From Escarpia spicata (Eukaryota > Annelida > Polychaeta > Sabellida > Siboglinidae): a DNA stretch of 64,000 nt. The notes under the pieces were generated by a model. The model ran no database searches and was not told the origin of the DNA. It saw nothing but the letters and a program-made list of their open reading frames with translations. The stretch is from NCBI GenBank assembly GCA_963995525.1, contig OZ023207.1:36315792-36379791 (forward strand), read 5' to 3'. A program made the translations under genes and the position numbers. Shown here piece by piece: positions 1-61,600 of this stretch; the first letter of the stretch is position 1, and each line of letters begins with the position of its first letter.

Positions 1-429
1 CTATTAAAAACGTCGTTACAACCTAAATTTCAATAATTTGAAAATGGTAACATAATATTGCGCGTGTGTGAGTGTACAGCTTACAATACAGTACATTTAT
101 ACGTTTTCTGACGGTTAGTTTTCGTTTATACGGGATAATCAACAGTTAAAAACGTCGTTACAAGCTAAATTTAAATAATTTGAAAGTGGTAACATAATCT
201 AGCACATGTATAAGTGTACAGCTTACAATATCGTACGTTTATACGTTTTCTGACGGTTAGTTTTCTTTTATAGGGGGTATTCAACAATTAAAAACGTCGT
301 TACAACCTAAATTTCAATAATTTGAAAATGGTAACATAATATTGCGCGTGTGTGAGTGTACAGCTTACAATACAGTACATTTAGACGTTTTCTGACGGTC
401 TGTTTTCGTTTATAGGGGATAATCAACAG

Positions 430-3700: not shown

Positions 3701-5009
3701 AAAACATCGTTACAAGCTAAATTTAGATAATTTGAAAGTGGTAACATAATCTAGCACATGTATAAGTGTACAGCTTACAATACAGTACATTTAGAGGTTT
3801 TCTGACGGTTAGTTTTCGTTTATAGGGGGTAATCAACAATTAAAAACGTCGTTACAAGCTAAATTTAGATAATTTGTAAGTGGTAACATAATCTAGCACA
3901 TGTATAAGTGTACTGCTTACAATATCGTACATTGATACGTTTTCTGACGGTTAGTTTTTTCTTTTATAGGGGGTATTCAACAATTAAAAACGTCGTTACA
4001 ACCTAAATTTCAATAATTTGAAAATGGTAACATAATATTGCGCGTGTGTGAGTGTACAGCTTACAATACAGTACATTTAGACGTTTTCTGACGGTTTGTT
4101 TTCGTTTATAGGGGTTATTCAACAATTAAAAACGTCGTTACAACGTAAATTTCAATAATTTGAAAATGGTAACATAATATTGCGCGTGTGTGAGTGTACA
4201 GCCTACAATACAGTACATTTAGACGTTTTCTGACGGTTAGTTTTCGTTTATAGGGGATAATCAACAGTTGAAAACATCGCTAAATGTAAAATTTCGATAA
4301 TTTGAAAGTGATATATAATTTAGCATCTACAAGTTTACAGCTTGCAATAACAGCAATATGGATCCTTTCTGACGGTTAGTTTTCATTGATTGGGGGGTAA
4401 ACAACAATTAAAAACGTTGCGAAATCCTGAATATTGATCAGTTGAAAGTGATGACATAATATTTCTTGTGTACAACTGTATATCTTGCAAAAACAGTAAT
4501 ATAGATGTTTTTCGACGGTTAGTTTTCTTTTATAGTGGGAAATCAACAGTTAAAAACATCGTTACAGGCTAAATTTAGATAATTTGATAATGGTAACATA
4601 ATATTGCGCGTGTGTGAATGTACAGCTTACAATAGCGTATATTTACACGTTTTCTGATGGTTAGTTTTCTTTTATAGGGGATATTCAACAATTAAAAACG
4701 TCGTTACAACCTAAATTTCAATAATTTGAAAAAGGTAACATAATATTGCGCGTGTGTGAGAGTACAGCTTACAATGCAGTACATTTAGACGTTTTCTGAC
4801 GGTTAGTTTTCGTTTATAGGGAGTAATCAACAATTAAAAACGTCGTTACAAGCTCAATTTAGATAATTTGTAAGTGGTAACATAATCTAGCACATGTATA
4901 AGTGTACTGCTTACAATATCGTACATTGATACGTTTTCTGACGGTTAGTTTACTTTTATAGTGGGTATTCAACAATTAAAAACGTAGTTACAACCTAAAT
5001 TTCAATAAT

Positions 5010-44994: not shown

Positions 44995-45000
44995 GTCGTT
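44995..45000. repeat. target site duplication, left copy (GTCGTT)
   Basis: The hexamer GTCGTT belongs to the satellite core AAAAACGTCGTTACAACC. It stands immediately before the AGTAGT terminus of the insert and is repeated immediately after the ACTACT terminus, where the satellite core continues with ACAACC. A 6-bp duplication is typical of Polinton/Maverick integration. Confidence 0.93.
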
Positions 45001-45135
45001 AGTAGTGTATAGGTATGTTTGGAGGGGTATCCACAGCCCTTTTTGAGGAGTTTTGGTTGATAATAGGGAGGTTTCGAAAGCCGCCCCCCTGAGCAAAGTG
45101 CGTAGTCACGTGACCGTATGTATGTATAACGAGAG

Positions 45136-45149
45136 GCGCCCCCTGGCGG
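45136..45149 (-). promoter_or_regulatory. CTCF-like motif, left end
   Basis: Read on the minus strand the 14-mer CCGCCAGGGGGCGC fits the metazoan CTCF core CCASYAGRKGGCRS at 13 of 14 positions. An inverted copy lies at the other end. Binding is not shown and the host's use of CTCF is unknown. Confidence 0.35.
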
Positions 45150-45251
45150 GTACGTTAGAGGTGACGCCTCCTAACGGGGAGTGGTGTTGTAGGTGAATGC
45201 GCGTGTATGAAAGAACTAACGAAACACAAGAGTATACGAGTGCACACGTGT

Positions 45252-45257
45252 TTTATT
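45252..45257 (-). terminator. poly(A) signal AATAAA (distal), left arm
   Basis: Canonical hexamer on the minus strand, about 265 bp past the stop of the protease fragment and in the same direction. Confidence 0.5.
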
Positions 45258-45285
45258 GATGAAAGATACAAGCGTGAAACCGTGT

Positions 45286-45291
45286 TTTATT
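45286..45291 (-). terminator. poly(A) signal AATAAA (proximal), left arm
   Basis: Canonical hexamer on the minus strand, about 230 bp downstream of the protease stop codon. Together with the second signal 34 bp further on it suggests a genuine transcript 3' end. Confidence 0.5.
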
Positions 45292-45307
45292 AAACGAAGT
45301 GCATCAA

Positions 45308-45467
45308 GACTTGTGGGTGAGTGAACACCGCGACAGAGGTCGTGAGCTTAGGGGTCAATACGACCACGCCAGCGGCTCGTGGGATGATGGTATACGACTT
45401 ACGGGTGAGTGAACACCGCGTCAGAGGCCGTGAGCTTACGGGTGTGTGACCACCGCGCCATAGGCTC
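45308..45467. repeat. 88-bp direct repeats, left arm
   Basis: About 1.8 copies of an 88-bp unit. The best-matching 47-bp parts are 45308-45354 and 45396-45442, both containing the reverse complement of GCGGTGTTCACTCACCC. Located between the protease fragment and the poly(A) signals, so in the 3' untranslated part of any transcript. Confidence 0.75.
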
Positions 45468-45522
45468 GAATCGTTAATGACGATGATGATGATGATAACA
45501 CCTGTTCGTTAATGAAACACGG

Positions 45523-45777
45523 TTATTGCAGTTGTTTAAGCCAATCGAATACACGGCAATCGTTTGCTATCAGATCAGTGCCGAAACCTTTTACGAAATC
45601 CTTCATGACAACTCCACGACATCGAAACATGAGATAAGCAACACAGTATTGTCCACAAACGTTAGACACGGGACTCTGTAGTCTCTTAGAATTATGAGTC
45701 CACGTTACACAATGTTTATTCAAGAAGCGACAAAACTCGACGTGTTGCGGCGGCAGACCGTACGAGCAGAGAAACCA
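45523..45777 (-). pseudogene. adenain-like cysteine protease, C-terminal fragment (left copy)
   Basis: Inverted copy of the fragment at 57821-58075, with no differences noticed within it. It shows NSKRLQSPVSNVCGQYC, which carries the oxyanion-hole glutamine (LQSP) and the nucleophilic cysteine with its CGQYC context, seen in adenovirus-type and Polinton proteases. Upstream, SYGLPP corresponds to the conserved F-D-S-Y/F-G-type strand of the family. The frame closes at an in-frame TGA just before this point. The N-terminal half with catalytic His and Asp/Glu is missing, so this is a remnant or a terminal exon rather than a whole enzyme (family members are about 200 residues). The stop codon is 522 bp from the element end. 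Confidence 0.72.
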
Positions 45778-45904
45778 TCATCATCATCATCTGTCTCCGG
45801 ACACCAATTTTCGACATCCCCGTGTCCAAGGGGGCAACAGGGTTGGGGTCAACCCAAGGGTTTGGAGGATCAAACTGGTCCCGTGTCCTCAGCAGTTCAG
45901 CCAT
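45716..45904 (-). CDS. small hypothetical ORF (MAELLRTRDQ...), left copy
   Basis: Sixty-two codons from an ATG in good context (G at -3 and +4), ending in an overlap with the protease fragment in another frame. The first 38 residues have ordinary protein composition (MAELLRTRDQFDPPNPW...) and are followed by five Met codons from an ATG repeat. It differs from the right-arm copy by one replacement, Asn for Asp, at 45844. In the same open frame upstream, Lys replaces Glu at 45943. Both known arm differences here change an amino acid, giving no sign of purifying selection. No family recognised. Confidence 0.3.
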   Translation of the reverse strand: MAELLRTRDQFDPPNPWVDPNPVAPLDTGMSKIGVRRQMMMMMVSLLVRSAAATRRVLSLLE

Positions 45905-46111
45905 GACGATACAGAAAGCACATTCGTGGTAGTCGCGGAGTTTTTCTTCTCTGGAACATATATGAAAGATAAGAATGGACTATGACACAATATGTAGACA
46001 TCGCCTGACGCGATCGGTAACCAGACACCGCGTAGCTAGCCGAAACGACAAGAGGGCAGGCTAGGTCAACATACGCATAGATAAGAAAGGACTGTGACAC
46101 AACATGTATAT

Positions 46112-46176
46112 AGTTTTGTTAGGTTTATATACGCAAATCCGATAGAGGCGTTATGTCTTTTCAATCACGAGACAGT
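46112..46176 (-). promoter_or_regulatory. TATA promoter module, proximal copy, left arm
   Basis: 65-bp module with TATATAAA at 46124-46131 (minus strand), reading toward the protease fragment. It is a direct repeat of 46801-46865, one base apart near the TATA box, 689 bp away. Confidence 0.5.
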
Positions 46177-46280
46177 GCAAAAACACGAGAAGGGACAAGA
46201 CAAGCTCAAGCACAGTACACACTAGCTGAGAAGGAGGTAAAGAAAGCCACCAAAAGAGATTTGACAAGATCAAGCACAGA

Positions 46281-46619
46281 AGGGAGACAGAGGGGGGTAG
46301 GAAGGCAGAGAAGGCGAGGAAAGAGAGGAGAGGGAGACAGAGGAGAATAGGAAGGCAGAGGAGGCGAAGAAAGATAGGAGAGGGAGACAGAGAAGGATAG
46401 GAAGGCAGAGAAGGCGAGGGAAGTGAGGAGAGGGAGACGAGGAGGATAGGAAGGCAGAGAAGGGAGGGAAGAGAGGAGAGGTAGACAGTGGAGGATAGGA
46501 AGGCAGAGAAGGCGAGGAAGAGAGGAGTGGGAGATAAGGGAGGATAGGAAAGCAGAGAAGGCGAGGAAAGAGAGGAGAGGGAGACAGAGGAGGATAGGAA
46601 GGCAGAGAAGGCGAGGAAA
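46281..46619. repeat. homopurine minisatellite, 49-50-bp unit, left arm
   Basis: Seven copies of a purine-only unit marked by GGAAGGCAGAG at about 46300, 46350, 46400, 46449, 46498, 46547 and 46597. On the minus strand it is a long polypyrimidine tract ending close to a fitting 3' splice site (CCTCCTTCTCAG, AG at 46226-46227). Such mirror-like purine tracts can form triplex DNA. The Leu/Ser/Pro-rich ORFs over it are artefacts of the repeat. Confidence 0.9.
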
Positions 46620-46669
46620 TACTTGGGAGATCAAGCATATGTCAAGCGATAAAATACAAAGTTTGCAGC

Positions 46670-46738
46670 ACTTACTTATTGGAGACGTATAATATTCATC
46701 TTGTCCTCGGGACATGCCTTGTCGTGAGCGCTCGCCAT
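46670..46738 (-). CDS. candidate 5' exon with GTAAGT donor, left copy
   Basis: Same sequence as the right copy at 56860-56928: about 80 bp downstream of the distal TATA box, an ATG opens a 20-codon frame (MASAHDKACPEDK...) closing with TAA directly before a consensus donor GTAAGT. A second ATG in another frame (MSRGQDEYYTSPI...) runs through the donor without a stop and could be the coding frame if splicing occurs. Speculative. Confidence 0.25.
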
Positions 46739-46800
46739 CTTCAGCAGTCGGAGTGAAGTTGCGTTGTTCGAAGTCGGTAGAAAGTAATATGCTCCACTAG

Positions 46801-46865
46801 AGTTTTGTTAGGTTTATATACGCAAACCCGATAGAGGCGTTATGTCTTTTAAATCACGAGACAGT
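46801..46865 (-). promoter_or_regulatory. TATA promoter module, distal copy, left arm
   Basis: TATATAAA at 46813-46820 on the minus strand within a 65-bp module duplicated at 46112-46176. The pair brackets the homopurine tract and both read outward. Confidence 0.5.
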
Positions 46866-46905
46866 ACAGACAATGGAGTCACGAGTTGAACTCTGCTCAC
46901 TGCCC

Positions 46906-47080
46906 GTGCTCGTTAGCGGGTGCAATATGAGATAAGCCGCGTGCCTCGACACTCACGAGAAGCCACTACGCTACGTCCATCCATACACGTGTTCCAACTT
47001 CCAACAGTTTACTTACCACAATTCTCATTCTTCAAACTGTCATATACATCTTGTGTCACAGGTGCTCGTTAGCGGGTGCA
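46906..47080. repeat. 19-bp direct repeat pair, left arm
   Basis: The 19-mer TGCACCCGCTAACGAGCAC (minus strand) occurs at 46906-46924 and 47062-47080, 156 bp apart. The outer copy adjoins the first unit of the 34-bp minisatellite. Nothing else is recognisable in this interval. Confidence 0.8.
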
Positions 47081-50000
47081 TTCCGTACATGGTCTAGCCT
47101 GTTACATGTCTCCCTTCCATACATGGTATAGTTTGTTACATGTTTGCCTTCCATACATGGTCTAGCCTGTTACAGGTCTACCTTCCATACATGGACTAGC
47201 TTGTTACATGTTTGCCTTCCATACATGGTCTAGCCTCTTACATGTTTCCCTTCCATACATGGTCTAGCTTGTTACATGTTGACCTTCCATACATGGACTA
47301 GCTTGTCACATGTTTGCCTTCCATACATGGTCTACCTTGTTACATGTTTGCCATCCATACATGGTCTAGCCTGTTACATGTTTGCCTTTCGTTCATGGTC
47401 TAGTTTGTTACATGTTGACCTTCCATACATGGACTAGCATGTTACATGTTTGCCTTCCATGCACGGTCTACCTTGTTACATATTTGTCTTTCATACATGG
47501 ACTAGCTTGCTACATGTTTGCCTTCTGTACATGGTCTACCTTGTTACATGTCTGCCTTCCATACATGGTCTACCTTGTTACATGTCTGCCTTCTGTACAT
47601 GGTCTACCTTGTTACATGTCTGCCTTCCATACATGGACTAGCTTGTTACCTGTTTGCTATCCATACATGGTCGAGCTTGTTACATGTTTGCCTTCCATAC
47701 ACGGACTAGCTTGTTACGTGTTTGCCTTCTATACATGGTCTGGCTTGTTACATGTCTGCCTTCCATACATGGTCTAACTTGCTACATGTCTGCCTTCCAT
47801 ATATGGTCTAACTTGTGACATGTTTGCCTTCCATACATGGTCTAGCCTGTTACATGGTTGCCTTTCGTTCATGGTCTAGTTTGTTACATGTTGACCTTCC
47901 ATACATGGACTAGCATGTTACATGTTTGCCTTCCATGCACGGTCTACCTTGTTACATATTTGTCTTTCATACATGGACTAGCTTGCTACATGTTTGCCTT
48001 CTGTACATGGTCTACCTTGTTACATGTCTGCCTTCCATACATGGACTAGCTTGTTACCTGTTTGCTATCCATACATGGTCGAGCTTGTTACATGTTTGCC
48101 TTCCATACACGGACTAGCTTGTTACGTGTTTGCCTTCTATACATGGTCTGGCTTGTTACATGTCTGCCTTCCATACATGGTCTAACTTGCTACATGTCTG
48201 CCTTCCATATATGGTCTAACTTGTGACATGTTTGCCTTCCATACATGGTCTAGCTTGTTACATGGTTGCCTTCCATACATGATCTAGCTTGTTACATGTC
48301 TGCCTTCCATACATGGTCTAGCTTGTTACATGTCTGCCTTCCATACATGGTCTAGTCTGTTACATGACTGCCTTTCGTACATGGATTAGCTTGTTACATG
48401 TTGGCCTTCCGTACATGGTCTAGCTTGTTACAAGTTTGCCTTCCATACATGGTCGAGCTTGTTACATGTTTGCCTTCCGTACATGGTCTAGCTTGTTACA
48501 TGTCTACCTTCCATACATGGACTAGCTTGATACCTGTTTGCCTTCCATACATGGTCTAGCCTGTTACATGTTTCCCTTCCATACATGGTCTAGCTTGTTA
48601 CATGTTGACCTTCCATACATGGACTAGCTTGTCACATGTTTGCCTTCCATACATGGTCTACCTTGTTACATGTTTGCCATCCATACATGGTCTAGCCTGT
48701 TACATGTTTGCCTTTCGTTCATGGTCTAGTTTGTTACATGTTGACCTTCCATACATGGACTAGCATGTTACATGTTTGCCTTCCATGCACGGTCTACCTT
48801 GTTACATATTTGTCTTTCATACATGGACTAGCTTGCTACATGTTTGCCTTCTGTACATGGTCTACCTTGTTACATGTCTGCCTTCCATACATGGTCTACC
48901 TTGTTACATGTCTGCCTTCTGTACATGGTCTACCTTGTTACATGTCTGCCTTCCATACATGGACTAGCTTGTTACCTGTTTGCTATCCATACATGGTCGA
49001 GCTTGTTACATGTTTGCCTTCCATACACGGACTAGCTTGTTACGTGTTTGCCTTCTATACATGGTCTGGCTTGTTACATGTCTGCCTTCCATACATGGTC
49101 TAACTTGCTACATGTCTGCCTTCCATATATGGTCTAACTTGTGACATGTTTGCCTTCCATACATGGTCTAGCCTGTTACATGTTTGCCTTTCGTTCATGG
49201 TCTAGTTTGTTACATGTTGACCTTCCATACATGGACTAGCATGTTACATGTTTGCCTTCCATGCACGGTCTACCTTGTTACATATTTGTCTTTCATACAT
49301 GGACTAGCTTGCTACATGTTTGCCTTCTGTACATGGTCTACCTTGTTACATGTCTGCCTTCCATACATGGACTAGCTTGTTACCTGTTTGCTATCCATAC
49401 ATGGTCGAGCTTGTTACATGTTTGCCTTCCATACACGGACTAGCTTGTTACGTGTTAGCCTTCTATACATGGTCTGGCTTGTTACATGTCTGCCTTCCAT
49501 ACATGGTCTAACTTGCTACATGTCTGCCTTCCATATATGGTCTAACTTGTGACATGTTTGCCTTCCATACATGGTCTAGCTTGTTACATGGTTGCCTTCC
49601 ATACATGATCTAGCTTGTTACATGTCTGCCTTCCATACATGGTCTAGCTTGTTACATGTCTGCCTTCCATACATGGTCTAGTCTGTTACATGACTGCCTT
49701 TCGTACATGGATTAGCTTGTTACATGTTGGCCTTCCGTACATGGTCTAGCTTGTTACAAGTTTGCCTTCCATACATGGTCGAGCTTGTTACATGTTTGCC
49801 TTCCGTACATGGTCTAGCTTGTTACATGTCTACCTTCCATACATGGACTAGCTTGATACCTGTTTGCTATCCATACATGGACTAGCTTTTTACATGTTGG
49901 CCTTCCGTACATGGTCTAGCTTGTTACAAGTTTGCCTTCCATACATGGTCTAGCTTGTTACATGTTTGCCTTCCGTACATGGTCTTGCTTGTTACACGTC

Positions 50001-50569
50001 TGCCTTCCATACATGGACTAGCTTGTTACCTGTTTGGTATCCACACATGGTCTAGCTTGTTACATGTTTACCTTCCATACACGGACTAGCTTGTTACATG
50101 TTTGCCTTCCATACATGGTCTGGCTTGTTACATGTCTGCCTTCCATACATGGTCTAGCTTGCTACATGTCTGCCTTCCATACATGATCTAACTTGTGACA
50201 TGTTTGCCTTCCATACACGGACTAGCTTGTTACATGTTTGCCTTCCGTACATGGTTTAGTTTGTTACATGTCTGCCTTCCATATATGGTCTAGCTTGTTA
50301 CATGTTTGCCTTTCATACATGATCTAGCCTGTTACATGTCTGCCTTCCGTACATGGACTAGCTTGTTACATGTTGGTCTTCCGTACACGGTCTAGCTTGT
50401 TACATGTATACCTTCCGTACATGGACTAGCTTGTTACATGTTTACCTTCCATACATGGACTAGCTTGTTACAGGTCTGCCTTTCATACATGGTCTAGCTT
50501 GTTACAAGTTTGCCTTCCGTACATGAACTAGCTTGTTACATGTTTGCCTTCCATATATGGTCTAGCTTG
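47081..50569. repeat. 34-bp minisatellite, left arm (about 102 units)
   Basis: Unit close to CCATACATGGTCTAGCTTGT followed by TACATGTTTGCCTT (34 bp). Variants alternate (GGTCTA/GGACTA, TTTG/TCTG/TTGA). All 63- to 131-codon frames in it arise because 34 is not a multiple of 3 and stops are rare in the unit. They are periodic Cys/Tyr/Leu-rich translations and not genes. It contains a 1326-bp internal duplication absent from the right arm. Confidence 0.97.
47225..49876. repeat. 1326-bp tandem duplication inside 34-bp array
   Basis: About 47225-48550 and 48551-49876 are nearly identical at an offset of 1326 bp (39 units). The right arm has only one copy. Copy 1 shares with the right arm the variants CTCTTAC (47230) and CATGGTTGCC (47853), while copy 2 has a private GTTAGCC (49454). 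So the duplication probably happened in this arm after the palindrome formed, or one copy was lost on the right. Confidence 0.88.
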
Positions 50570-50940
50570 GCGGAAAGTGAAGGAGCTAGTGTCTGCTCCT
50601 GAGGGGGAATTAGCCTGTCACGGGACCGACCTCCTAGTGGAAGTAGTACCACCTGGCGGGTAATGAAGGAGTAATGAGGGAATATTAAAGGCTAATTGAC
50701 GTAGACCGAGTCTGCTGATATATATCACTCTGGGCTGGAGCACCCATGGGGAAATTTTAAGATGGTGCCCGTCTCCACGTGATCTACCCCCTGGAGGAAA
50801 GAAGTGTAAGTAGTAAGGATATTTTATTTGCTATATTGTTTGTATGACTGCCAGTTTAAATGGTTATTTATTATGATGCCTAAAAATTGAAACTGATGAC
50901 ACATTCATTCTGTCATGCATTGTCCGAAATGTCATGTCTC
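50570..50940. other. non-repetitive segment, left arm
   Basis: 371 bp of single-copy sequence between the two minisatellites, mirrored at 53984-54354. On the minus strand it holds candidate exon B with its polypyrimidine acceptor. On the plus strand there is a TATATATC stretch (50717-50724) and a GTAAGT at about 50808, so a promoter/5' exon reading inward is an alternative. Confidence 0.6.
50725..50790 (-). CDS. candidate terminal exon B, left copy
   Basis: Inverted copy of 54134-54199; see that entry. Reads GVDHVETGTILKFPHGC and closes with TGA, behind the acceptor CTTCTTTCCTCCAG. No family recognised. Confidence 0.3.
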   Translation of the reverse strand, partial: GVDHVETGTILKFPHGCSSPE

Positions 50941-51888
50941 CCTTGTAACACTTTGTCGTGATTGCCCAAAGACACACCACTCCCATGTAACACTTTGTGT
51001 CACTATTGCCCAAAGACCTCCACTCCAATATAACACTTTGTGTCACTATTGCCCAAAGACCCACTCCCATGTAACCTTTGTGACTATTGTCCAAAGTCCC
51101 CCACTCGAATGTAACACTTTGTGTCACTATTGACCAAAGTCCCCCACTCCCATGTAACCTTTGTCACTATTGCCCAAAGACCCCCACTCCCATGTAACAC
51201 TTTGTCACTATTGTCCAAAGACCCCACCCCCATGTAACACTGTCACTATTACCCAAAGACCCACACTCCCATGTAACACGTTGTCACTATTGCCCAAAGA
51301 CCCCCACTCCCATGTACCACTTTGTCACTATTGCCCAAAGACCCCACCCCCATGTAACACTGTCACTATTGCCCAAAGACCCACACTCCCATGTAACACG
51401 TTGTCACTATTGCCCAAAGACCCCCACTCCCATGTACCACTTTGTCACTATTGCCCAAAGACCCCCACTCCCCCTTGTCACTATTGACCAAAGACCCCCA
51501 CTCCCATGTAACACTGTCACTATTGCCCAAAGACCCACACTCCCATATAACACTTTGTTACAAGACCCCCACTCCCATGTACCACTATGTCACTATTGCC
51601 CAAAGACCCCCACTCCCAAGTAACACGTTGTCACTATTGCCCAAAGACCCCCACTCCCATGTACCACTTTGTCACTATTGCCCAAAGACCCCCACTCTCA
51701 TGTAACACTTTGTCACAAGACCCCCACTCCCATGTACCACTATGTCACTATTGCTCAAAGACCCCCAATTCCATGTAACACTTTGTCACAAGACCCCCAC
51801 TCCCATGTAACACTTTGTCACAAGACCCCCACTCCCACGTAACACTTTGCCACAAGACCCCCATTCCTATGTAACACTTCGTCACATC
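50941..51888. repeat. 41-bp minisatellite, left arm
   Basis: Unit close to CACTATTGCCCAAAGACCCC + CACTCCCATGTAACACTTTGT (41 bp) with shortened forms lacking the CACTATTGCC part, especially near the inner end. ORFs of 63-108 codons (Pro/His/Leu-rich) on this strand are periodic artefacts. It would lie inside an intron if the flanking candidate exons are real. Confidence 0.95.
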
Positions 51889-51951
51889 ACCAGTGTGACA
51901 TACTTTATGGCTGCCCCCTGTGTATAAGAACCATCACATGACACGACTCAC

Positions 51952-52031
51952 CGAGCAGCCTTCGACCTTCTCGAGAAGGAAGGCGAGGCTCTTGAGGGTG
52001 TCCTCCTCCTCTACGTCCTCCGCATCCTCTA
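51952..52031 (-). CDS. candidate internal exon A, left copy
   Basis: Inverted copy of 52893-52972; see that entry. Acidic start followed by TLKSLAFLLEKVEGCS, between TTGCAG acceptor and GTGAGT donor. No family recognised. Confidence 0.35.
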
Positions 52032-52047
52032 CTGCAACACCAAGGCA

Positions 52048-52292
52048 CTACATCACAACACAGCATCACATCACATCACAACACCACATCACATCCTCCA
52101 GTACAATACCACAGCACAGCATCACATCACCACTACATCACATCAATACATGATTACATCACAATACAGCATCACTACATCACAACATAGCATATCATCT
52201 CATCGCATCACTACATCATATCATCTCATCACATTCACTACATCATATCATCTCATCACTACATCACATCATCTCATCACATCACTACATCA
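52048..52292. repeat. ATCAC/TACATCAC microsatellite, left arm
   Basis: Irregular CATCA- and TACATCACAT-type short repeats, running into a (TGTA)n stretch up to about 52318. Mirrored at 52632-52876. No gene. Confidence 0.9.
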
Positions 52293-52317
52293 TGTATGTA
52301 TGTATGTGTATGTACGT

Positions 52318-52365
52318 ATTTTGTGAGTTCTACTATCAAAAGAGTGACATTTTGTGAGTTCTACT
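52318..52365. repeat. 17-bp direct repeat near apex, left arm
   Basis: ATTTTGTGAGTTCTACT at 52318-52334 and 52349-52365, separated by 14 bp. Mirrored at 52559-52606. Confidence 0.8.
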
Positions 52366-52383
52366 GTGGTGTCCTAGCCTTAC

Positions 52384-52540
52384 ACGCATGCACGCACCCA
52401 TGCACCCACCCACCGTCGCCGTCCCCACCCGCCCTCGCCGCCGCAGAGGCGGCGCGCGCGCGCCGCCCTTCCCTGAAGGGCGGCGGCGAGGGCGGGTGGG
52501 GACGGCGACGGTGGGTGGGTGCATGGGTGCGTGCATGCGT
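52384..52540. other. GC-rich branched hairpin apex of the palindrome
   Basis: The axis of the giant palindrome is at 52462. The last paired bases are G52443:C52481. The 37-nt interior is not simply a loop. It contains a perfect 20-bp palindrome GGCGGCGCGCGCGCGCCGCC (52448-52467) and a second stem, CTTC (68-71) with GAAG (75-78) around a CCT loop. A single strand would therefore fold into a long GC-rich stem crowned by two side arms (T- or Y-shape), the geometry used by hairpin telomeres. Overlapping Arg/Gly/Ala-rich frames on both strands here are compositional artefacts. Confidence 0.75.
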
Positions 52541-52631
52541 GTAAGGCTAGGACACCACAGTAGAACTCACAAAATGTCACTCTTTTGATAGTAGAACTCA
52601 CAAAATACGTACATACACATACATACATACA

Positions 52632-52876
52632 TGATGTAGTGATGTGATGAGATGATGTGATGTAGTGATGAGATGATATGATGTAGTGAATGTGATGAGA
52701 TGATATGATGTAGTGATGCGATGAGATGATATGCTATGTTGTGATGTAGTGATGCTGTATTGTGATGTAATCATGTATTGATGTGATGTAGTGGTGATGT
52801 GATGCTGTGCTGTGGTATTGTACTGGAGGATGTGATGTGGTGTTGTGATGTGATGTGATGCTGTGTTGTGATGTAG
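52632..52876. repeat. GATGT/GTGATGTA microsatellite, right arm
   Basis: Inverted copy of 52048-52292. It ends just before the acceptor of candidate exon A. Confidence 0.9.
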
Positions 52877-52892
52877 TGCCTTGGTGTTGCAG

Positions 52893-52972
52893 TAGAGGAT
52901 GCGGAGGACGTAGAGGAGGAGGACACCCTCAAGAGCCTCGCCTTCCTTCTCGAGAAGGTCGAAGGCTGCTCG
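52893..52972 (+). CDS. candidate internal exon A, right copy
   Basis: 80 bp bounded by a fitting acceptor (CTTGGTGTTGCAG, AG at 52891-52892) and a consensus donor (CG|GTGAGT at 52973). Read in phase 2 it gives 26 codons without a stop: an acidic stretch EDAEDVEEED followed by TLKSLAFLLEKVEGCS, an amphipathic helix-like segment of normal composition, unlike the repeat-derived frames around it. No exon is found upstream because the palindrome axis lies only 430 bp away, so the 5' part of the gene would have been lost when the palindrome formed. It could be a captured host exon or a part of an element gene. A second frame is also open, so coding is not proven. Not assigned to a family. Confidence 0.4.
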
Positions 52973-53035
52973 GTGAGTCGTGTCATGTGATGGTTCTTAT
53001 ACACAGGGGGCAGCCATAAAGTATGTCACACTGGT

Positions 53036-53983
53036 GATGTGACGAAGTGTTACATAGGAATGGGGGTCTTGTGGCAAAGTGTTACGTGGGAGTGGGGGTC
53101 TTGTGACAAAGTGTTACATGGGAGTGGGGGTCTTGTGACAAAGTGTTACATGGAATTGGGGGTCTTTGAGCAATAGTGACATAGTGGTACATGGGAGTGG
53201 GGGTCTTGTGACAAAGTGTTACATGAGAGTGGGGGTCTTTGGGCAATAGTGACAAAGTGGTACATGGGAGTGGGGGTCTTTGGGCAATAGTGACAACGTG
53301 TTACTTGGGAGTGGGGGTCTTTGGGCAATAGTGACATAGTGGTACATGGGAGTGGGGGTCTTGTAACAAAGTGTTATATGGGAGTGTGGGTCTTTGGGCA
53401 ATAGTGACAGTGTTACATGGGAGTGGGGGTCTTTGGTCAATAGTGACAAGGGGGAGTGGGGGTCTTTGGGCAATAGTGACAAAGTGGTACATGGGAGTGG
53501 GGGTCTTTGGGCAATAGTGACAACGTGTTACATGGGAGTGTGGGTCTTTGGGCAATAGTGACAGTGTTACATGGGGGTGGGGTCTTTGGGCAATAGTGAC
53601 AAAGTGGTACATGGGAGTGGGGGTCTTTGGGCAATAGTGACAACGTGTTACATGGGAGTGTGGGTCTTTGGGTAATAGTGACAGTGTTACATGGGGGTGG
53701 GGTCTTTGGACAATAGTGACAAAGTGTTACATGGGAGTGGGGGTCTTTGGGCAATAGTGACAAAGGTTACATGGGAGTGGGGGACTTTGGTCAATAGTGA
53801 CACAAAGTGTTACATTCGAGTGGGGGACTTTGGACAATAGTCACAAAGGTTACATGGGAGTGGGTCTTTGGGCAATAGTGACACAAAGTGTTATATTGGA
53901 GTGGAGGTCTTTGGGCAATAGTGACACAAAGTGTTACATGGGAGTGGTGTGTCTTTGGGCAATCACGACAAAGTGTTACAAGG
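53036..53983. repeat. 41-bp minisatellite, right arm
   Basis: Inverted copy of 50941-51888, with no net length change. It fills the interval between candidate exons A and B. The proline/histidine-rich frames on the minus strand are artefacts. Confidence 0.95.
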
Positions 53984-54354
53984 GAGACATGACATTTCGG
54001 ACAATGCATGACAGAATGAATGTGTCATCAGTTTCAATTTTTAGGCATCATAATAAATAACCATTTAAACTGGCAGTCATACAAACAATATAGCAAATAA
54101 AATATCCTTACTACTTACACTTCTTTCCTCCAGGGGGTAGATCACGTGGAGACGGGCACCATCTTAAAATTTCCCCATGGGTGCTCCAGCCCAGAGTGAT
54201 ATATATCAGCAGACTCGGTCTACGTCAATTAGCCTTTAATATTCCCTCATTACTCCTTCATTACCCGCCAGGTGGTACTACTTCCACTAGGAGGTCGGTC
54301 CCGTGACAGGCTAATTCCCCCTCAGGAGCAGACACTAGCTCCTTCACTTTCCGC
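53984..54354. other. non-repetitive segment, right arm
   Basis: Inverted copy of 50570-50940. Contains candidate exon B on the plus strand and two weaker CTCF-like matches (CCTCCAGGGGGTAG at 54127-54140 and CCGCCAGGTGGTAC at 54265-54278, each 12 of 14). Confidence 0.6.
54134..54199 (+). CDS. candidate terminal exon B, right copy
   Basis: Starts after a strong polypyrimidine acceptor (CTTCTTTCCTCCAG, AG at 54132-54133). Because exon A ends in phase 0, the frame continued here is GVDHVETGTILKFPHGC... and closes with TGA at 54197-54199. The sequence has unbiased composition and lies in the only single-copy part of this region. A different frame (starting at 54136) stays open for 57 codons, so the correct phase is uncertain. 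An AATAAA-type signal close downstream was not seen, which argues against a complete gene end. If exons A and B are joined, the 1161-bp intron is almost entirely 41-bp minisatellite. No family recognised. Confidence 0.3.
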   Translation, partial: GVDHVETGTILKFPHGCSSPE

Positions 54355-56517
54355 CAAGCTAGACCATATATGGAAGGCAAACATGTAACAAGCTAGTTCA
54401 TGTACGGAAGGCAAACTTGTAACAAGCTAGACCATGTATGAAAGGCAGACCTGTAACAAGCTAGTCCATGTATGGAAGGTAAACATGTAACAAGCTAGTC
54501 CATGTACGGAAGGTATACATGTAACAAGCTAGACCGTGTACGGAAGACCAACATGTAACAAGCTAGTCCATGTACGGAAGGCAGACATGTAACAGGCTAG
54601 ATCATGTATGAAAGGCAAACATGTAACAAGCTAGACCATATATGGAAGGCAGACATGTAACAAACTAAACCATGTACGGAAGGCAAACATGTAACAAGCT
54701 AGTCCGTGTATGGAAGGCAAACATGTCACAAGTTAGATCATGTATGGAAGGCAGACATGTAGCAAGCTAGACCATGTATGGAAGGCAGACATGTAACAAG
54801 CCAGACCATGTATGGAAGGCAAACATGTAACAAGCTAGTCCGTGTATGGAAGGTAAACATGTAACAAGCTAGACCATGTGTGGATACCAAACAGGTAACA
54901 AGCTAGTCCATGTATGGAAGGCAGACGTGTAACAAGCAAGACCATGTACGGAAGGCAAACATGTAACAAGCTAGACCATGTATGGAAGGCAAACTTGTAA
55001 CAAGCTAGACCATGTACGGAAGGCCAACATGTAAAAAGCTAGTCCATGTATGGATAGCAAACAGGTATCAAGCTAGTCCATGTATGGAAGGTAGACATGT
55101 AACAAGCTAGACCATGTACGGAAGGCAAACATGTAACAAGCTCGACCATGTATGGAAGGCAAACTTGTAACAAGCTAGACCATGTACGGAAGGCCAACAT
55201 GTAACAAGCTAATCCATGTACGAAAGGCAGTCATGTAACAGACTAGACCATGTATGGAAGGCAGACATGTAACAAGCTAGACCATGTATGGAAGGCAGAC
55301 ATGTAACAAGCTAGATCATGTATAGAAGGCAACCATGTAACAAGCTAGACCATGTATGGAAGGCAAACATGTCACAAGTTAGACCATATATGGAAGGCAG
55401 ACATGTAGCAAGTTAGACCATGTATGGAAGGCAGACATGTAACAAGCCAGACCATGTATAGAAGGCAAACACGTAACAAGCTAGTCCGTGTATGGAAGGC
55501 AAACATGTAACAAGCTCGACCATGTATGGATAGCAAACAGGTAACAAGCTAGTCCATGTATGGAAGGCAGACATGTAACAAGGTAGACCATGTACAGAAG
55601 GCAAACATGTAGCAAGCTAGTCCATGTATGAAAGACAAATATGTAACAAGGTAGACCGTGCATGGAAGGCAAACATGTAACATGCTAGTCCATGTATGGA
55701 AGGTCAACATGTAACAAACTAGACCATGAACGAAAGGCAACCATGTAACAGGCTAGACCATGTATGGAAGGCAAACATGTCACAAGTTAGACCATATATG
55801 GAAGGCAGACATGTAGCAAGTTAGACCATGTATGGAAGGCAGACATGTAACAAGCCAGACCATGTATAGAAGGCAAACACGTAACAAGCTAGTCCGTGTA
55901 TGGAAGGCAAACATGTAACAAGCTCGACCATGTATGGATAGCAAACAGGTAACAAGCTAGTCCATGTATGGAAGGCAGACATGTAACAAGGTAGACCATG
56001 TACAGAAGGCAGACATGTAACAAGGTAGACCATGTATGGAAGGCAGACATGTAACAAGGTAGACCATGTACAGAAGGCAAACATGTAGCAAGCTAGTCCA
56101 TGTATGAAAGACAAATATGTAACAAGGTAGACCGTGCATGGAAGGCAAACATGTAACATGCTAGTCCATGTATGGAAGGTCAACATGTAACAAACTAGAC
56201 CATGAACGAAAGGCAAACATGTAACAGGCTAGACCATGTATGGATGGCAAACATGTAACAAGGTAGACCATGTATGGAAGGCAAACATGTGACAAGCTAG
56301 TCCATGTATGGAAGGTCAACATGTAACAAGCTAGACCATGTATGGAAGGGAAACATGTAAGAGGCTAGACCATGTATGGAAGGCAAACATGTAACAAGCT
56401 AGTCCATGTATGGAAGGTAGACCTGTAACAGGCTAGACCATGTATGGAAGGCAAACATGTAACAAACTATACCATGTATGGAAGGGAGACATGTAACAGG
56501 CTAGACCATGTACGGAA
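54355..56517. repeat. 34-bp minisatellite, right arm (about 63 units)
   Basis: Inverted copy of the left minisatellite with 39 fewer units. Frames of 63-131 codons on the minus strand are periodic artefacts. Confidence 0.97.
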
Positions 56518-56692
56518 TGCACCCGCTAACGAGCACCTGTGACACAAGATGTATATGACAGTTTGAAGAATGAGAATTGTGGTAAGTAAACTGTTGGAAG
56601 TTGGAACACGTGTATGGATGGACGTAGCGTAGTGGCTTCTCGTGAGTGTCGAGGCACGCGGCTTATCTCATATTGCACCCGCTAACGAGCAC
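56518..56692. repeat. 19-bp direct repeat pair, right arm
   Basis: TGCACCCGCTAACGAGCAC at 56518-56536 and 56674-56692. A consensus donor-like GGTAAGT occurs between them (about 56580), of unknown meaning. Confidence 0.8.
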
Positions 56693-56732
56693 GGGCAGTG
56701 AGCAGAGTTCAACTCGTGACTCCATTGTCTGT

Positions 56733-56797
56733 ACTGTCTCGTGATTGAAAAGACATAACGCCTCTATCGGGTTTGCGTATATAAACCTAACAAAACT
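56733..56797 (+). promoter_or_regulatory. TATA promoter module, distal copy, right arm
   Basis: Contains TATATAAA at 56778-56785 with GC-containing flanks (TTTGCG upstream). The module is repeated 689 bp downstream with one difference in 65 bp. About 80 bp after the TATA box comes an ATG in fair context and then a GTAAGT donor, the arrangement expected of an RNA polymerase II promoter and first exon. Confidence 0.55.
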
Positions 56798-56859
56798 CTA
56801 GTGGAGCATATTACTTTCTACCGACTTCGAACAACGCAACTTCACTCCGACTGCTGAAG

Positions 56860-56928
56860 ATGGCGAGCGCTCACGACAAGGCATGTCCCGAGGACAAGAT
56901 GAATATTATACGTCTCCAATAAGTAAGT
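56860..56928 (+). CDS. candidate 5' exon with GTAAGT donor, right copy
   Basis: From ATG at 56860, 20 codons (MASAHDKACPEDK...) end in TAA at 56920-56922, immediately before the donor GTAAGT (56923-56928). The alternative ATG at 56883 (MSRGQDEYYTSPI...) crosses the donor open and, unspliced, continues as a meaningless Leu/Ser/Pro-rich frame through the pyrimidine repeat. The matching acceptor may be CCTCCTTCTCAG with AG at 57371-57372 after the pyrimidine tract, or TATGTTCCAG at 57647. Joining to the first gives only a short frame. No product can be named. Confidence 0.25.
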
Positions 56929-56978
56929 GCTGCAAACTTTGTATTTTATCGCTTGACATATGCTTGATCTCCCAAGTA

Positions 56979-57317
56979 TTTCCTCGCCTTCTCTGCCTTC
57001 CTATCCTCCTCTGTCTCCCTCTCCTCTCTTTCCTCGCCTTCTCTGCTTTCCTATCCTCCCTTATCTCCCACTCCTCTCTTCCTCGCCTTCTCTGCCTTCC
57101 TATCCTCCACTGTCTACCTCTCCTCTCTTCCCTCCCTTCTCTGCCTTCCTATCCTCCTCGTCTCCCTCTCCTCACTTCCCTCGCCTTCTCTGCCTTCCTA
57201 TCCTTCTCTGTCTCCCTCTCCTATCTTTCTTCGCCTCCTCTGCCTTCCTATTCTCCTCTGTCTCCCTCTCCTCTCTTTCCTCGCCTTCTCTGCCTTCCTA
57301 CCCCCCTCTGTCTCCCT
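56979..57317. repeat. homopyrimidine minisatellite, right arm
   Basis: Inverted copy of 46281-46619: seven 49-50-bp units of C/T on this strand. It sits where an intron polypyrimidine tract would be expected between the candidate 5' exon and the acceptor at 57371, but at about ten times usual length. The 169- and 122-codon frames through it are artefacts. Confidence 0.9.
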
Positions 57318-57421
57318 TCTGTGCTTGATCTTGTCAAATCTCTTTTGGTGGCTTTCTTTACCTCCTTCTCAGCTAGTGTGTACTGTGCTTGAGCTTGTCT
57401 TGTCCCTTCTCGTGTTTTTGC

Positions 57422-57486
57422 ACTGTCTCGTGATTGAAAAGACATAACGCCTCTATCGGATTTGCGTATATAAACCTAACAAAACT
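57422..57486 (+). promoter_or_regulatory. TATA promoter module, proximal copy, right arm
   Basis: Second copy of the 65-bp module, TATATAAA at 57467-57474. It lies 220 bp upstream of the small ORF and 350 bp upstream of the protease fragment, reading toward both. Confidence 0.5.
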
Positions 57487-57693
57487 ATATACATGTTGTG
57501 TCACAGTCCTTTCTTATCTATGCGTATGTTGACCTAGCCTGCCCTCTTGTCGTTTCGGCTAGCTACGCGGTGTCTGGTTACCGATCGCGTCAGGCGATGT
57601 CTACATATTGTGTCATAGTCCATTCTTATCTTTCATATATGTTCCAGAGAAGAAGAACTCCGCGACTACCACGAATGTGCTTTCTGTATCGTC

Positions 57694-57882
57694 ATGGCTG
57701 AACTGCTGAGGACACGGGACCAGTTTGATCCTCCAAACCCTTGGGTTGACCCCGACCCTGTTGCCCCCTTGGACACGGGGATGTCGAAAATTGGTGTCCG
57801 GAGACAGATGATGATGATGATGGTTTCTCTGCTCGTACGGTCTGCCGCCGCAACACGTCGAGTTTTGTCGCTTCTTGAATAA
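57694..57882 (+). CDS. small hypothetical ORF (MAELLRTRDQ...), right copy
   Basis: Begins with ATG in good context (GTCATGG), 62 codons, ending in TAA inside the protease fragment in a different frame. The same frame stays open upstream to 57619, and an acceptor-like TTCCAG at 57642-57647 would add EEELRDYHECAFC... before the Met, so this may be an internal exon. A run of five Met codons comes from an (ATG)n microsatellite. A one-base frameshift near that repeat would fuse it to the protease frame, which may be the origin of the present disruption. No family recognised. Confidence 0.3.
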   Translation: MAELLRTRDQFDPPNPWVDPDPVAPLDTGMSKIGVRRQMMMMMVSLLVRSAAATRRVLSLLE

Positions 57883-58075
57883 ACATTGTGTAACGTGGAC
57901 TCATAATTCTAAGAGACTACAGAGTCCCGTGTCTAACGTTTGTGGACAATACTGTGTTGCTTATCTCATGTTTCGATGTCGTGGAGTTGTCATGAAGGAT
58001 TTCGTAAAAGGTTTCGGCACTGATCTGATAGCAAACGATTGCCGTGTATTCGATTGGCTTAAACAACTGCAATAA
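57821..58075 (+). pseudogene. adenain-like cysteine protease, C-terminal fragment (right copy)
   Basis: About 84 codons in one frame from just after an in-frame TGA (57818-57820) to TAA (58073-58075). Members of the adenovirus protease family (clan CE, MEROPS C5-like; found in Polintons/Mavericks and adintoviruses) cleave virion precursor proteins during particle maturation. The signature is NSKRLQSPVSNVCGQYC: Gln codon at 57920 fits the oxyanion hole and Cys codon at 57941 the nucleophile. It is preceded by SYGLPP (the strand after the acidic catalytic residue) and followed by the hydrophobic helix VAYLMFRCRG. The His and Asp/Glu of the triad are absent, and the adjacent upstream frames show nothing like them. 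The fragment is therefore a remnant or last exon and should be inactive alone. Two AATAAA signals follow in the same direction. Confidence 0.75.
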
Positions 58076-58130
58076 CCGTGTTTCATTAACGAACAGGTGT
58101 TATCATCATCATCATCGTCATTAACGATTC

Positions 58131-58290
58131 GAGCCTATGGCGCGGTGGTCACACACCCGTAAGCTCACGGCCTCTGACGCGGTGTTCACTCACCCGTAAG
58201 TCGTATACCATCATCCCACGAGCCGCTGGCGTGGTCGTATTGACCCCTAAGCTCACGACCTCTGTCGCGGTGTTCACTCACCCACAAGTC
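58131..58290. repeat. 88-bp direct repeats, right arm
   Basis: Units share CGAGCC...GGCG.GGTCGT/CAC, then TAAGCTCACG.CCTCTG and GCGGTGTTCACTCACCC. Best-matching parts are 58156-58202 and 58244-58290. Confidence 0.75.
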
Positions 58291-58306
58291 TTGATGCACT
58301 TCGTTT

Positions 58307-58312
58307 AATAAA
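58307..58312 (+). terminator. poly(A) signal AATAAA (proximal), right arm
   Basis: Canonical hexamer about 230 bp after the protease stop codon, same direction. Confidence 0.5.
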
Positions 58313-58340
58313 ACACGGTTTCACGCTTGTATCTTTCATC

Positions 58341-58346
58341 AATAAA
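58341..58346 (+). terminator. poly(A) signal AATAAA (distal), right arm
   Basis: Second canonical hexamer, 34 bp after the first, followed by a T- and GT-containing stretch (GTGTGCACTCGTATACTCTT) that could act as a downstream element. Confidence 0.5.
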
Positions 58347-58448
58347 ACACGTGTGCACTCGTATACTCTTGTGTTTCGTTAGTTCTTTCATACACGCGCA
58401 TTCACCTACAACACCACTCCCCGTTAGGAGGCGTCACCTCTAACGTAC

Positions 58449-58462
58449 CCGCCAGGGGGCGC
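58449..58462 (+). promoter_or_regulatory. CTCF-like motif, right end
   Basis: CCGCCAGGGGGCGC, 13 of 14 positions of the CTCF core. With the inverted copy at the left end the two motifs point outward. Confidence 0.35.
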
Positions 58463-58597
58463 CTCTCGTTATACATACATACGGTCACGTGACTACGCAC
58501 TTTGCTCAGGGGGGCGGCTTTCGAAACCTCCCTATTATCAACCAAAACTCCTCAAAAAGGGCTGTGGATACCCCTCCAAACATACCTATATACTACT

Positions 58598-58603
58598 GTC
58601 GTT
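58598..58603. repeat. target site duplication, right copy (GTCGTT)
   Basis: Directly follows ACTACT and continues into ACAACCTAAATTT, the normal satellite core, so the left flank plus this flank rebuild an uninterrupted monomer. Confidence 0.93.
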
Positions 58604-61600
58604 ACAACCTAAATTTCAATAATTTGAAAAAGGTAACATAATATTGCGCGTGTGTGAGTGTACAGCTTACAATACAGTACATTTAGACGTTTTCTGACGG
58701 TTAGTTTTCGTTTATAGGGGGTAATCAACAATTAAAAACGTCGTTACAACCTAAATTTCAATAATTTGAAAATGGTAACATAATATTGCGCGTGTGTGAG
58801 TGTACAGCTTACAATACAGTACATTTAGACGTTTTCTGACGGTTTGTTTTCGTTTATAGGGGTTATTCAACAATTAAAAACGTCGTTACAACGTAAATTT
58901 CAATAATTTGAAAAAGGTAACATAATATTGCGCGTGTGTGAGTGTACAGCCTACAATACAGTACATTTAGACGTTTTCTGACGGTTAGTTTTCGTTTATA
59001 GGGGATAATCAACAGTTGAAAACATCGCTAAATGTTAAATTTCGATAATTTGAAAGTGATATCATATAATTTAGCATCTACAAGTTTACAGCTTGCAATA
59101 ACAGCAATATGGATCCTTTCTGACGGTTAGTTTTCATTGATTGGGGGTAAACAACAATTAAAAACGTTGCGAAATCCTGAATATTGATCAGTTGAAAGTG
59201 ATGACATAATATTTCTTGTGTACAACTGTATATCTTGCAAATACAGTAATATAGATGTTTTTCGACGGTTAGTTTTCTTTTATAGTGGGAAATCAACAGT
59301 TAAAAACATCGTTACAGGATAAATTTCGATAATTTGATAATGGTAACATAATATTGCGCGTGTGTGAATGTACAGCTTACAATAGCGTATATTTACACGT
59401 TTTCTGACGGTCAGTTTTCTTTTATAGGGGATATTCAACAATTAAAAACGTCGTTACAACCTAAATTTCAATAATTTGAAAAAGGTAACATAATATTGCG
59501 CGTGTGTGAGTGTACAGCTTACAATACAGTACATTTAGACGTTTTCTGACGGTTAGTTTTCGTTTATAGAGGGTAATCAACAATTAAAAACGTCGTTACA
59601 AGCTAAATTTAGATAATTTGTAAGTGGTAACATAATCTAGCACATGTATAAGTGTATTGCTTACAATATCGTACATTGATACGTTTTCTGACGGTTAGTT
59701 TACTTTTATAGTGGGTATTCAACAATTAAAAACGTAGTTACAACCTAAATTTCAATAATTTCAAAAAGTTAACATAATGTTGCGCGTGTGTGAGTGTACA
59801 GCTTACAATACAGTACATTTAGACGTTTTCTGACGGTTAGTTTTCGTTTATAGGGGGTAATCAACAATTAAAAACGTCGTTACAACCTAAATTTCAATAA
59901 TTTGAAAATGGTAACATAATATTGCGGGTGTGTGAGTGTACAGCTTACAATACAGTACATTTATACGTTTTCTGACGGTTAGTTTTCGTTTATAGGGGAT
60001 AATCAACAGTTAAAAACGTCGTTACAAGCTAAATTTAGATAATTTGTAAGTGGTAACATAATCTAGCACATGTATAAGTGTACAGCTTACAATATCGTAC
60101 GTTTATACGTTTTCTGACGGTTAGTTTTCTTTTATAGGGGGTATTCAACAATTAAAAACGTCGTTACAACCTAAATTTCAATAATTTGAAAATGGTATCA
60201 TAATATTGCGCGTGTGTGAGTGTACAGCCTACAATACAGTACATTTAGACGTTTTCTGACGGTTAGTTTTCGTTTATAGGGGATAATCAACAAATAAAAA
60301 ACATCGCTAAATGTTAAATTTCGATAATTTGAAAGTGATATAATATAATTTAGCATCTACAAGTTTACAGCTTGCAATAACAGCAATATGGATCCTTTCT
60401 GACGGTTAGTTTTCATTGATTGGGGGTAAACAACAATTAAAAACGTTGCGAAATCCTGAATATTTATCAATTGAAAGTGATCACATAATATTTCGTGTGT
60501 AAAACTGTATATCTTGCAAATACAGTAATATATATGTTTTCCGACGGTTAGTTTTCTTTTATAGTGGGAAATCAACAGTTAAAAACGTCGTTACATGCTA
60601 AATTTCGATAATTTGATAATGGTTACATAATATTGCGCGTGTGTGAGTGTACAGCTTACAATACAGTACATTTAGACGTTTTCTGACGGTTACTTTTCGT
60701 TTATAGGGGATAATCAACAGTTAAAAATATCGCTAAATGTAAAATTTCGATAATTTGAAAGTGATATCATATAATTTAGCATCTACAAGTTTACAGCTTG
60801 CAATAACAGCAATATGGATCCTTTCTGACGGTTAGTTTTCATTGATTGGGGGTAAACAACAATTAAAAACGTTGCGAAATCCTGAATATTGATCAATTGA
60901 AAGTGATCACATAATATTTCGTGTGTACAACTGTATATCTTGCGAATACAGTAATATAGATGTTTTCCGACGGTTAGTTTTCTTTTATAGTGGGAAATCA
61001 ACAGTTAAAAACGTCGTTACAGGCTAAATTTCGATAATTTGATAATGGTAACATAATATTGCGCTTGTGTGAATGTACAGCTTACAATATCGTATATTTA
61101 CACGTTTTCTGACGGTTTGTTTTCGTTTATAGGGGGTAATCAACAATTAAAAACGTCGTTACAAGCTAAATTTAGATAATTTGTAAGTGGTAACATAATC
61201 TAGCACATGTATAAGTGTACTGCTTACAATATCGTACATTGATACGTTTTCTGACGGTTAGTTTACTTTTATAGGGGGTATTCAACAATTAAAAACGTCG
61301 TGTGTACAGCTTACAATACAGTACAATTATACGTTTTCTGACGGTTAGTTTTCGTTTATAGGGGATAATCAACAGTTTAAAACGTCGTTACAAGCTAAAT
61401 TTAGATAATTTGAAAGTGGTAACATAATCTAGCACATGTATAAGTGTACTGCTTACAATATCGTACATTGATACGTTTTCTGACGGTTAGTTTACTTTTA
61501 TAGGGGGTATTCAACAATTAAAAACGTCGTGTGTACAGCTTACAATACAGTACAATTATACGTTTTCTGACGGTTAGTTTTCGTTTATAGGGGATAATCA

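Follow-up and report, generated by a model that had tools for sequence, protein, structure and literature searches.

A palindromic insert in a host satellite

The window analysed here (C3:36315792-36379791) is a stretch of 64,000 nucleotides from the 1.06-Gb genome of the annelid Escarpia spicata, in which a host satellite of 142-bp units (window positions 3-45001 and 58598-64000) is interrupted by an insert of 13,597 bp (45001-58597). This insert is a near-perfect inverted repeat with the ends of a Polinton/Maverick element. Right after the GTCGTT of the satellite at 44995-45000, the insert starts with AGTAGTGTATAGG; it finishes at 58597 with TATATACTACT, and then the second GTCGTT follows. 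Its termini read AGTAGT...ACTACT. Both the 6-bp target duplication and the AG...CT termini, which a first-pass annotation of this DNA had reported, are exact.

The two arms match each other in two blocks. In the outer block, 45001-48541 pairs with 58597-55057 with 5 substitutions in 3,541 positions, while in the inner one, 48564-52444 pairs with 56360-52480 with 3 substitutions in 3,881. One position falls in both blocks, and the substituted positions of the right arm are 7 distinct ones in 6,118 bp. The register shift between the blocks is 1,326 bp, which corresponds to 39 units of a 34-bp satellite. Because the left arm is longer by this amount inside that satellite, the axis of the palindrome (52462) lies away from the midpoint of the insert (51799). 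The annotation had described inverted repeats that reach the exact centre without a unique interior. In effect, the arms do run up to the axis core, but the axis is not the midpoint and the 35 nt of the core are not mirrored as a whole (Table 1).

No stop-to-stop frame in the element exceeds 196 aa, and the Pfam scan covered three frames. Unlike an autonomous Polinton, it has neither PolB nor rve genes and no bounded terminal inverted repeat (TIR) with a unique interior. As for the surrounding satellite, its 142-bp unit also has variants of 87, 229 and 371 bp, and the insert sits at the GTCGTT of a unit.

Table 1. Features of the palindromic element and its target site, in window positions
Feature	Positions	Strand	Remarks
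Left target-site duplication GTCGTT	44995..45000	.	6 bp
Left arm	45001..52444	+	7,444 bp; AGTAGT at outer end
Polinton PRO-end segment, left	45001..45770	+	99.3% identical to PRO end of full-length C14 Polinton
Putative adenain-like protease C-terminal stump, left	45523..45777	-	84 codons; conserved His missing
Stretches resembling the subterminal region at the other (PolB) side of full-length Polintons	45772..46071	+	79-82% similar
50-bp GA-rich tandem repeat, left	46281..46619	+	
34-bp satellite, left	47077..50569	+	102.7 units; includes the extra 1,326 bp
41-bp tandem repeat, left	50938..51821	+	
Axis core	52445..52479	.	35 nt, not mirrored as a whole; predicted T-shaped hairpin with inner arms
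Right arm	52480..58597	-	6,118 bp; mirrors left arm; ACTACT at outer end
41-bp tandem repeat, right	53135..53986	-	
34-bp satellite, right	54355..56521	-	63.7 units
50-bp GA-rich tandem repeat, right	56979..57317	-	
Protease stump, mirror copy	57821..58075	+	Mirror of left stump
Polinton PRO-end segment, right copy	57828..58597	-	Mirror of left segment
Right target-site duplication GTCGTT	58598..58603	.	6 bp

Copies in the host genome

The host genome was searched with the outer 400 bp of the element, and the best 40 of 1,087 candidates were scored, so that all copy numbers given here are lower bounds. These end matches represent at least 30 elements, namely 10 facing pairs (window included) and 20 single ends. 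Judging by the sequence inside the end, 14 of the 30 are satellite-armed like the window element and 16 are coding Polintons. Among the nine facing pairs besides the window, a perfect 6-bp duplication is present in eight (seven of eight satellite-armed pairs, plus C6a, a coding copy described below). For four of the five single-ended copies of the satellite type (L050 was left out), the second end was estimated by hand from the end and the axis. In two of these four it was located within about 100 bp and with the correct duplication, at C12:38774548-38788987 (TACGTA) and C5:30769830-30784824 (ACCGTA).

In total, the duplication is perfect in 10 of the 11 satellite-armed copies in which both ends were read. 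The exception is C6b (L023/L024, C6:44915742-44929947), whose flanks are inverted and identical at 500 of 500 bases, with no duplication; this copy may be a fold-back assembly artefact or a real inverted duplication. Chance is excluded by the length of the palindrome together with the ten satellite-armed copies, the window among them, that have both ends and a perfect duplication. The annotation had asked for other host copies with identical termini. Such copies were found, and the window element belongs to a multi-copy family rather than being a single accident. Its inner arm is common to seven of the nine other copies that were fetched.

Some copies deserve separate mention. About 42 kb past the end of the window, L077 (C3:36421600-36421950) is a separate palindrome centre of the same family, with half-arms that are 98% and 93% like those of the window. 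On C396 (L004, L005, L029, L030), two satellite-armed copies lie 34 kb apart, and their ends and near flanks differ at 14 of 3,400 bases. Two small contigs, L042 (C506) and L043 (C300), carry the same Polinton end with complementary flanks and are probably two haplotypes of one locus.

Coding Polintons with the same ends

Two coding copies with the same ends as the palindromes were read over their full length, piece by piece. One of them (C14:40162911-40179364) has 16,454 bp and the duplication AACGAC, and the other (C12:53453209-53469922) has 16,714 bp and the duplication GTTGCC. Their TIRs are about 126 bp long and 96.9% and 100% identical, respectively. The annotation had also called for a full-length Polinton sharing the terminus and the protease; the C14 copy matches the terminal 770 bp at 99.3%, and the protease end is shared. 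Other satellite-armed copies are 95.8-99.0% identical to the C14 end over 512-1290 bp, and L050, a copy of the satellite type, retains 1,290 bp of it.

From the PRO end inward, the C12 Polinton carries genes for a putative protease, a major capsid protein, a smaller capsid-like protein, an integrase, an ATPase and a polymerase, where the two capsid genes are presumed to be such from their likeness and place. The Pfam model DNA_pol_B_2 is matched with E values of 8.8e-11 in C14 and 7.5e-10 in C5, while the single frame tested of the C12 polymerase falls just under the cut-off (4.5e-5). The rve integrase model is matched at 1.6e-9 in C14 and 2e-10 in C5, with a chromodomain alongside in each, and the Pox_A32 ATPase at 2.1e-5 in C6a. 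A whole-genome search with PF03175 returned one place, outside the elements read here, among the best 91 of 246 candidates; since it missed the elements read here, it is an undercount.

For the capsid protein, 1,951 relatives were found at E <= 0.001 among the best 8,000 candidates scored. The double jelly-roll model PF21738 is matched by one of these relatives, but not by the query or by two other relatives. The best named relatives come from vestimentiferan tubeworms (Lamellibrachia, Ridgeia and an Escarpia symbiont bin), with 58-76% identity. A scan of genome contigs with the capsid protein confirmed no relative, nor did scans of viral contigs with this protein and with the protease stump. 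Close relatives of both the capsid protein and the protease (P0001 and P0121) lie on an 11,769-bp contig of a tubeworm symbiont bin and are filed under the bacterial symbiont; this contig is probably either contaminating host DNA or extrachromosomal. Finally, L040 (C13:4282628-4284868) is of the coding type, with an internal deletion that joins Polinton positions 1034 and 4931.

One coding copy is rearranged. C6a (L021/L022, C6:53779289-53790538) has 11,250 bp, the duplication CACGCC and inverted ends of 4.15 kb, each with protease, capsid and second capsid-like genes. Its middle, of 2.95 kb, holds the ATPase gene and most of the integrase gene, and no polymerase gene was seen in the nine frames scanned. 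Compared with C14, the PRO end (1-4155) is joined to 7132 and then runs back to 1. An inverted copy of the PRO-capsid end takes the place of the PolB half, and C6a is rearranged in the same manner as the palindromes, perhaps at an intermediate stage.

Composition of the arms

The first 770 positions of the arm correspond to the PRO end of the Polinton, and stretches within 772-1070 resemble the opposite subterminal region. Beyond about 1.07 kb, where tandem repeats take up much of the arm, none of the Polinton pieces compared gave a match. Since both Polinton ends and repeats are found in it, the arm is a composite.

The adenain-like protease signature reported by the first-pass annotation corresponds to a C-terminal stump of the putative adenain-like protease of the coding relatives. 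The stump itself is reduced to 84 codons, starts downstream of the conserved His and, against Peptidase_C5, reaches only E 0.038, under the cut-off; neither PHROGs nor a single-sequence PDB search returned anything for it. It is recognised through the longer protease frame of the coding relatives, although that of C6a scores 0.0017 against Peptidase_C5, also below the cut-off. With a profile of the protease family, the African swine fever virus S273R protease (6lj9) is matched at E 1.8e-7 and adenovirus proteases at 0.0014 (4piq) and 0.014 (1avp), where a chance-like match stands at 0.024. Cys117 does not vary among the 37 sequences, and conservation of His60 and Gln106 is 90% or more.

Target sites

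All 12 palindromic sites and 14 of 15 coding ones have CG, TG or CA as the two central bases of the duplicated hexamer (26 of all 27; CG in 18), whereas these make up 18% of 13,007 flank dinucleotides. In this count, C6b was left out because of its inverted flanks, and the two C396 copies were taken as one site, as were L042 and L043. Two of the palindromic sites and 12 of the coding ones were read from one side only. This Polinton integrase has a CpG preference, and the common target preference suggests that a single integrase inserts elements of both types.

Differences within and between copies

In the copies read, the two arms of a copy carry the same point variants and Polinton-end breakpoints, and in several they are also equally long; between copies there are differences. 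For instance, the mean difference between left and right within a copy is 0.055% for the outer arm (10 copies) and 0.105% for the inner arm (8 copies; C6a and copy C3 contributed no inner-arm piece). By contrast, random pairing of left and right arms gives 0.68% and 3.49%, and the observed values were matched in 0 and 22 of 100,000 shuffles, respectively. Without C6b these numbers become 5 and 122, and without both C6a and the doubtful C6b they become 40 and 122, which is weaker but still clear. Copy age is expressed here as arm difference alone.

Breakpoints behave in the same way. Within a copy, both sides break off from the Polinton end at one and the same coordinate, which varies from copy to copy: 515; 647 in C9b, C2 and C13a; 773 in the window; 892; 924 in C6b; and 1290 in copy C3, which has a small deletion on its left side. 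C9a has no right-hand value in this comparison, and a separate one gives 644 on both of its sides. In addition, outer and inner trees conflict, the outer tree being poorly resolved. C9b, C9a and C2 have identical outer ends, but the interior of C9b groups with that of the window (support 100/97) while the interior of C9a is identical to that of C13a; both arms show this pattern.

Comparable patterns are found at the centres and in the position of the axis. From 21 centre pieces, the window included, 13 of exactly 339 bp were compared, and 11 of the 17 deviations from the most common base occur on both arms, seven of them at one site. The axis is within 1 bp of the midpoint in C9a, C13a and C254, despite their lengths of 9.6, 13.8 and 14.6 kb, and in the outer 4.2 kb the arms of C9a, C13a, C2, C13b and C254 differ by only 1-5 mismatches. 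Changes of one arm thus tend to appear on both arms, although some one-sided changes persist. This is read as the copying of one arm onto the other, during insertion or earlier.

The axis core

When one mismatch is allowed, a 28-nt pattern taken from the core occurs at 66 places in the genome (33 per strand, 49 exact), in contrast to none for a reversed control. A 153-bp query adjoining the axis found both halves facing each other at 20 of 40 places, the best 40 of 221 candidates, and 14 of these 20 have the halves 34 bp apart. In the predicted fold of the core and its surroundings, a long stem carries two small hairpins. When five further cores were folded, C9a and C254 were predicted to branch like the window and C13a less clearly so, while C9b and C13b gave plain hairpins.

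The orientation of the loop (33 matches per strand; 5 F and 8 R among the centre pieces) was considered as a sign of parvovirus-like flip-flop and dropped as evidence. Equal strand counts are also expected because a palindrome inserts in either direction at random, and they are no proof of mechanism. A core variant is shared by two centres that lie only 6.8 kb apart (L056, C10:31625736; L057, C10:31632495), and at C14:22553370 and C14:22553447 there are facing core matches 49 bp apart in a rearranged centre.

Origin and propagation

The palindromes have a PRO-side end on both sides and the same 6-bp duplication at the same kind of target as the full-length Polintons, with PolB and integrase genes, alongside which they occur. 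With good probability, the window element derives from the Polinton/Maverick family of its own host as a non-autonomous element that is palindromic throughout, moved in trans and with its arms regenerated from one arm during replication. The reading of the annotation, either a non-autonomous Polinton of the fold-back type or the product of a palindromising replication, gains support from the copies with the same termini and from the full-length Polintons that share the ends.

Mirrored variants and breakpoints also speak for a snap-back mechanism, which may proceed as follows. The proteins of the partner Polintons would act in trans, and protein-primed synthesis would run from the AGTAGT end to the centre. 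There, the GC-rich core could fold the nascent strand back on itself, whereupon this strand would copy its own arm, and a new copy would start with two identical arms. The integrase would then insert the palindrome. Both the movement in trans and the folding back are inferred.

A more specific proposal, possible but doubtful, is that of a heritable hairpin replicon. In this case, the replicating unit would have half the length of the element, with protein priming at the Polinton end and a T-shaped, parvovirus-like hairpin at the other, and the integrase would insert a head-to-head dimer. The genome end of adeno-associated virus (AAV) is T-shaped. If such a replicon exists, the dimer would be rebuilt from one arm in each round, so that a swap at one end would show on both, and Polinton and hairpin replication would be joined in one parasite.

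Several observations weigh against the main explanation, a palindromic Polinton derivative with arms regenerated from one arm. The arms of the window differ by 1,326 bp, and the axis is also far from the midpoint in C9b and 13 bp away from it in C13b, while in C2, C3, C6b and C6a no axis above the threshold was found. In the outer 4.2 kb, there are 16 arm mismatches in C6a, 16 in C6b (plus 56 gap places), 74 in C9b and 269 in copy C3, although satellite register shifts are suspected behind those of C9b and copy C3. At the centres, six of the 17 departures are on one arm, four of them in one copy, and among the same best 40 of 221 candidates 15 places are one-sided and 5 are partial. For both C396 copies, no second end was present at the hand-estimated place. 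Moreover, the z of -12.2 for the predicted fold of the core owes much to the palindromic stem itself, and the junction of C6a is a run of A with no clear homology.

Mirrored arms could also arise if the element were an ordinary non-autonomous Polinton with arms homogenised after insertion by gene conversion between the chromosomal arms, as in the Y-chromosome palindromes with which such conversion is compared. This would likewise yield the likeness within copies, and it counts against regeneration at or before insertion. Nevertheless, asymmetries that are taken to postdate insertion persist (the 1,326 bp in the window and losses at centres), and thus conversion is not erasing differences fast. 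In addition, the likeness extends to the outermost bases of both ends, and breakpoints agree within a copy yet differ between copies. Gene conversion is therefore an unlikely explanation, but one to be taken seriously.

Far less probable, and rejected, is a fold-back transposon of another superfamily (Foldback/Galileo-like, or a Mutator-like element) with captured Polinton ends. Foldback and Galileo have another duplication length and other termini, whereas the palindromes match the resident Polintons in their termini, their 6-bp duplication and their target preference. Nor does the element hold a frame of more than 196 aa, where three frames were covered by the Pfam scan. In its favour, the arm beyond about 1.07 kb is unmatched in the Polinton pieces compared, and the long, internally repetitive arms resemble those of Galileo and Foldback (PMC3573991).

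Each copy might instead be an independent, fresh snap-back of a full-length Polinton, with no propagating family. C6a looks like one such event. For the satellite-armed copies this is disfavoured and quite improbable, since seven of nine other copies share with the window an inner arm that is unmatched in the Polinton pieces compared, and the core is matched at 66 places.

Lastly, an assembly artefact (a missed adapter, a fold-back chimera or a collapsed unique interior) is rejected as extremely improbable, even if C6b may be one, because a fold-back should mirror the flanks too and the 142-bp satellite runs in the same direction to the left and right of the insert, while ten satellite-armed copies have perfect duplications and the core recurs against a control of zero.

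Comparison with known systems

Intact vertebrate Mavericks have (AGT)2//(ACT)2 ends, 6-bp duplications, a size near 17 kb and TIRs of 46-1,447 bp (mean 402; PMC8097293). The palindromes share such ends and duplications, and their coding partners also have PolB, integrase and ATPase genes, a capsid gene and a probable protease gene, and a length of about 17 kb. In contrast to the Mavericks, the inverted arms of the palindromes make up the whole element, with no long frame left. No palindromic Polinton was found among the titles and openings of abstracts listed from the open-access literature; most subscription journals lie outside this scope, and this is weak evidence of novelty.

Fold-back structures are known from other settings. 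Galileo and Foldback have long, internally repetitive inverted ends, as the palindromes do, but Galileo is classed with the P element (PMC3573991). Hairpin-mediated inverted duplications are also described for yeast (PMC7467729), although these fold-back inversions are chromosomal rearrangements and not mobile elements.

A parallel in form comes from the snapback genomes of AAV, which are self-complementary, either symmetric or asymmetric with a loop, have one parental end and replicate when parental proteins are supplied (PMC8235507). The palindromes are likewise self-complementary with one parental end, and C6a shares the form of an asymmetric snapback genome. The differences are that AAV belongs to another virus group and that its snapbacks are virion genomes, while the palindromes are genomic insertions that form a family. 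If the proposed origin holds, the two arms could serve as an internal clock, like long terminal repeats. Mirrored breakpoints would then record how the DNA was copied, and Polinton replication would be testable from sequence alone. Polintons would also have parasites of the fold-back kind that parallel the snapback genomes of small DNA viruses and survive as copies in the genome.

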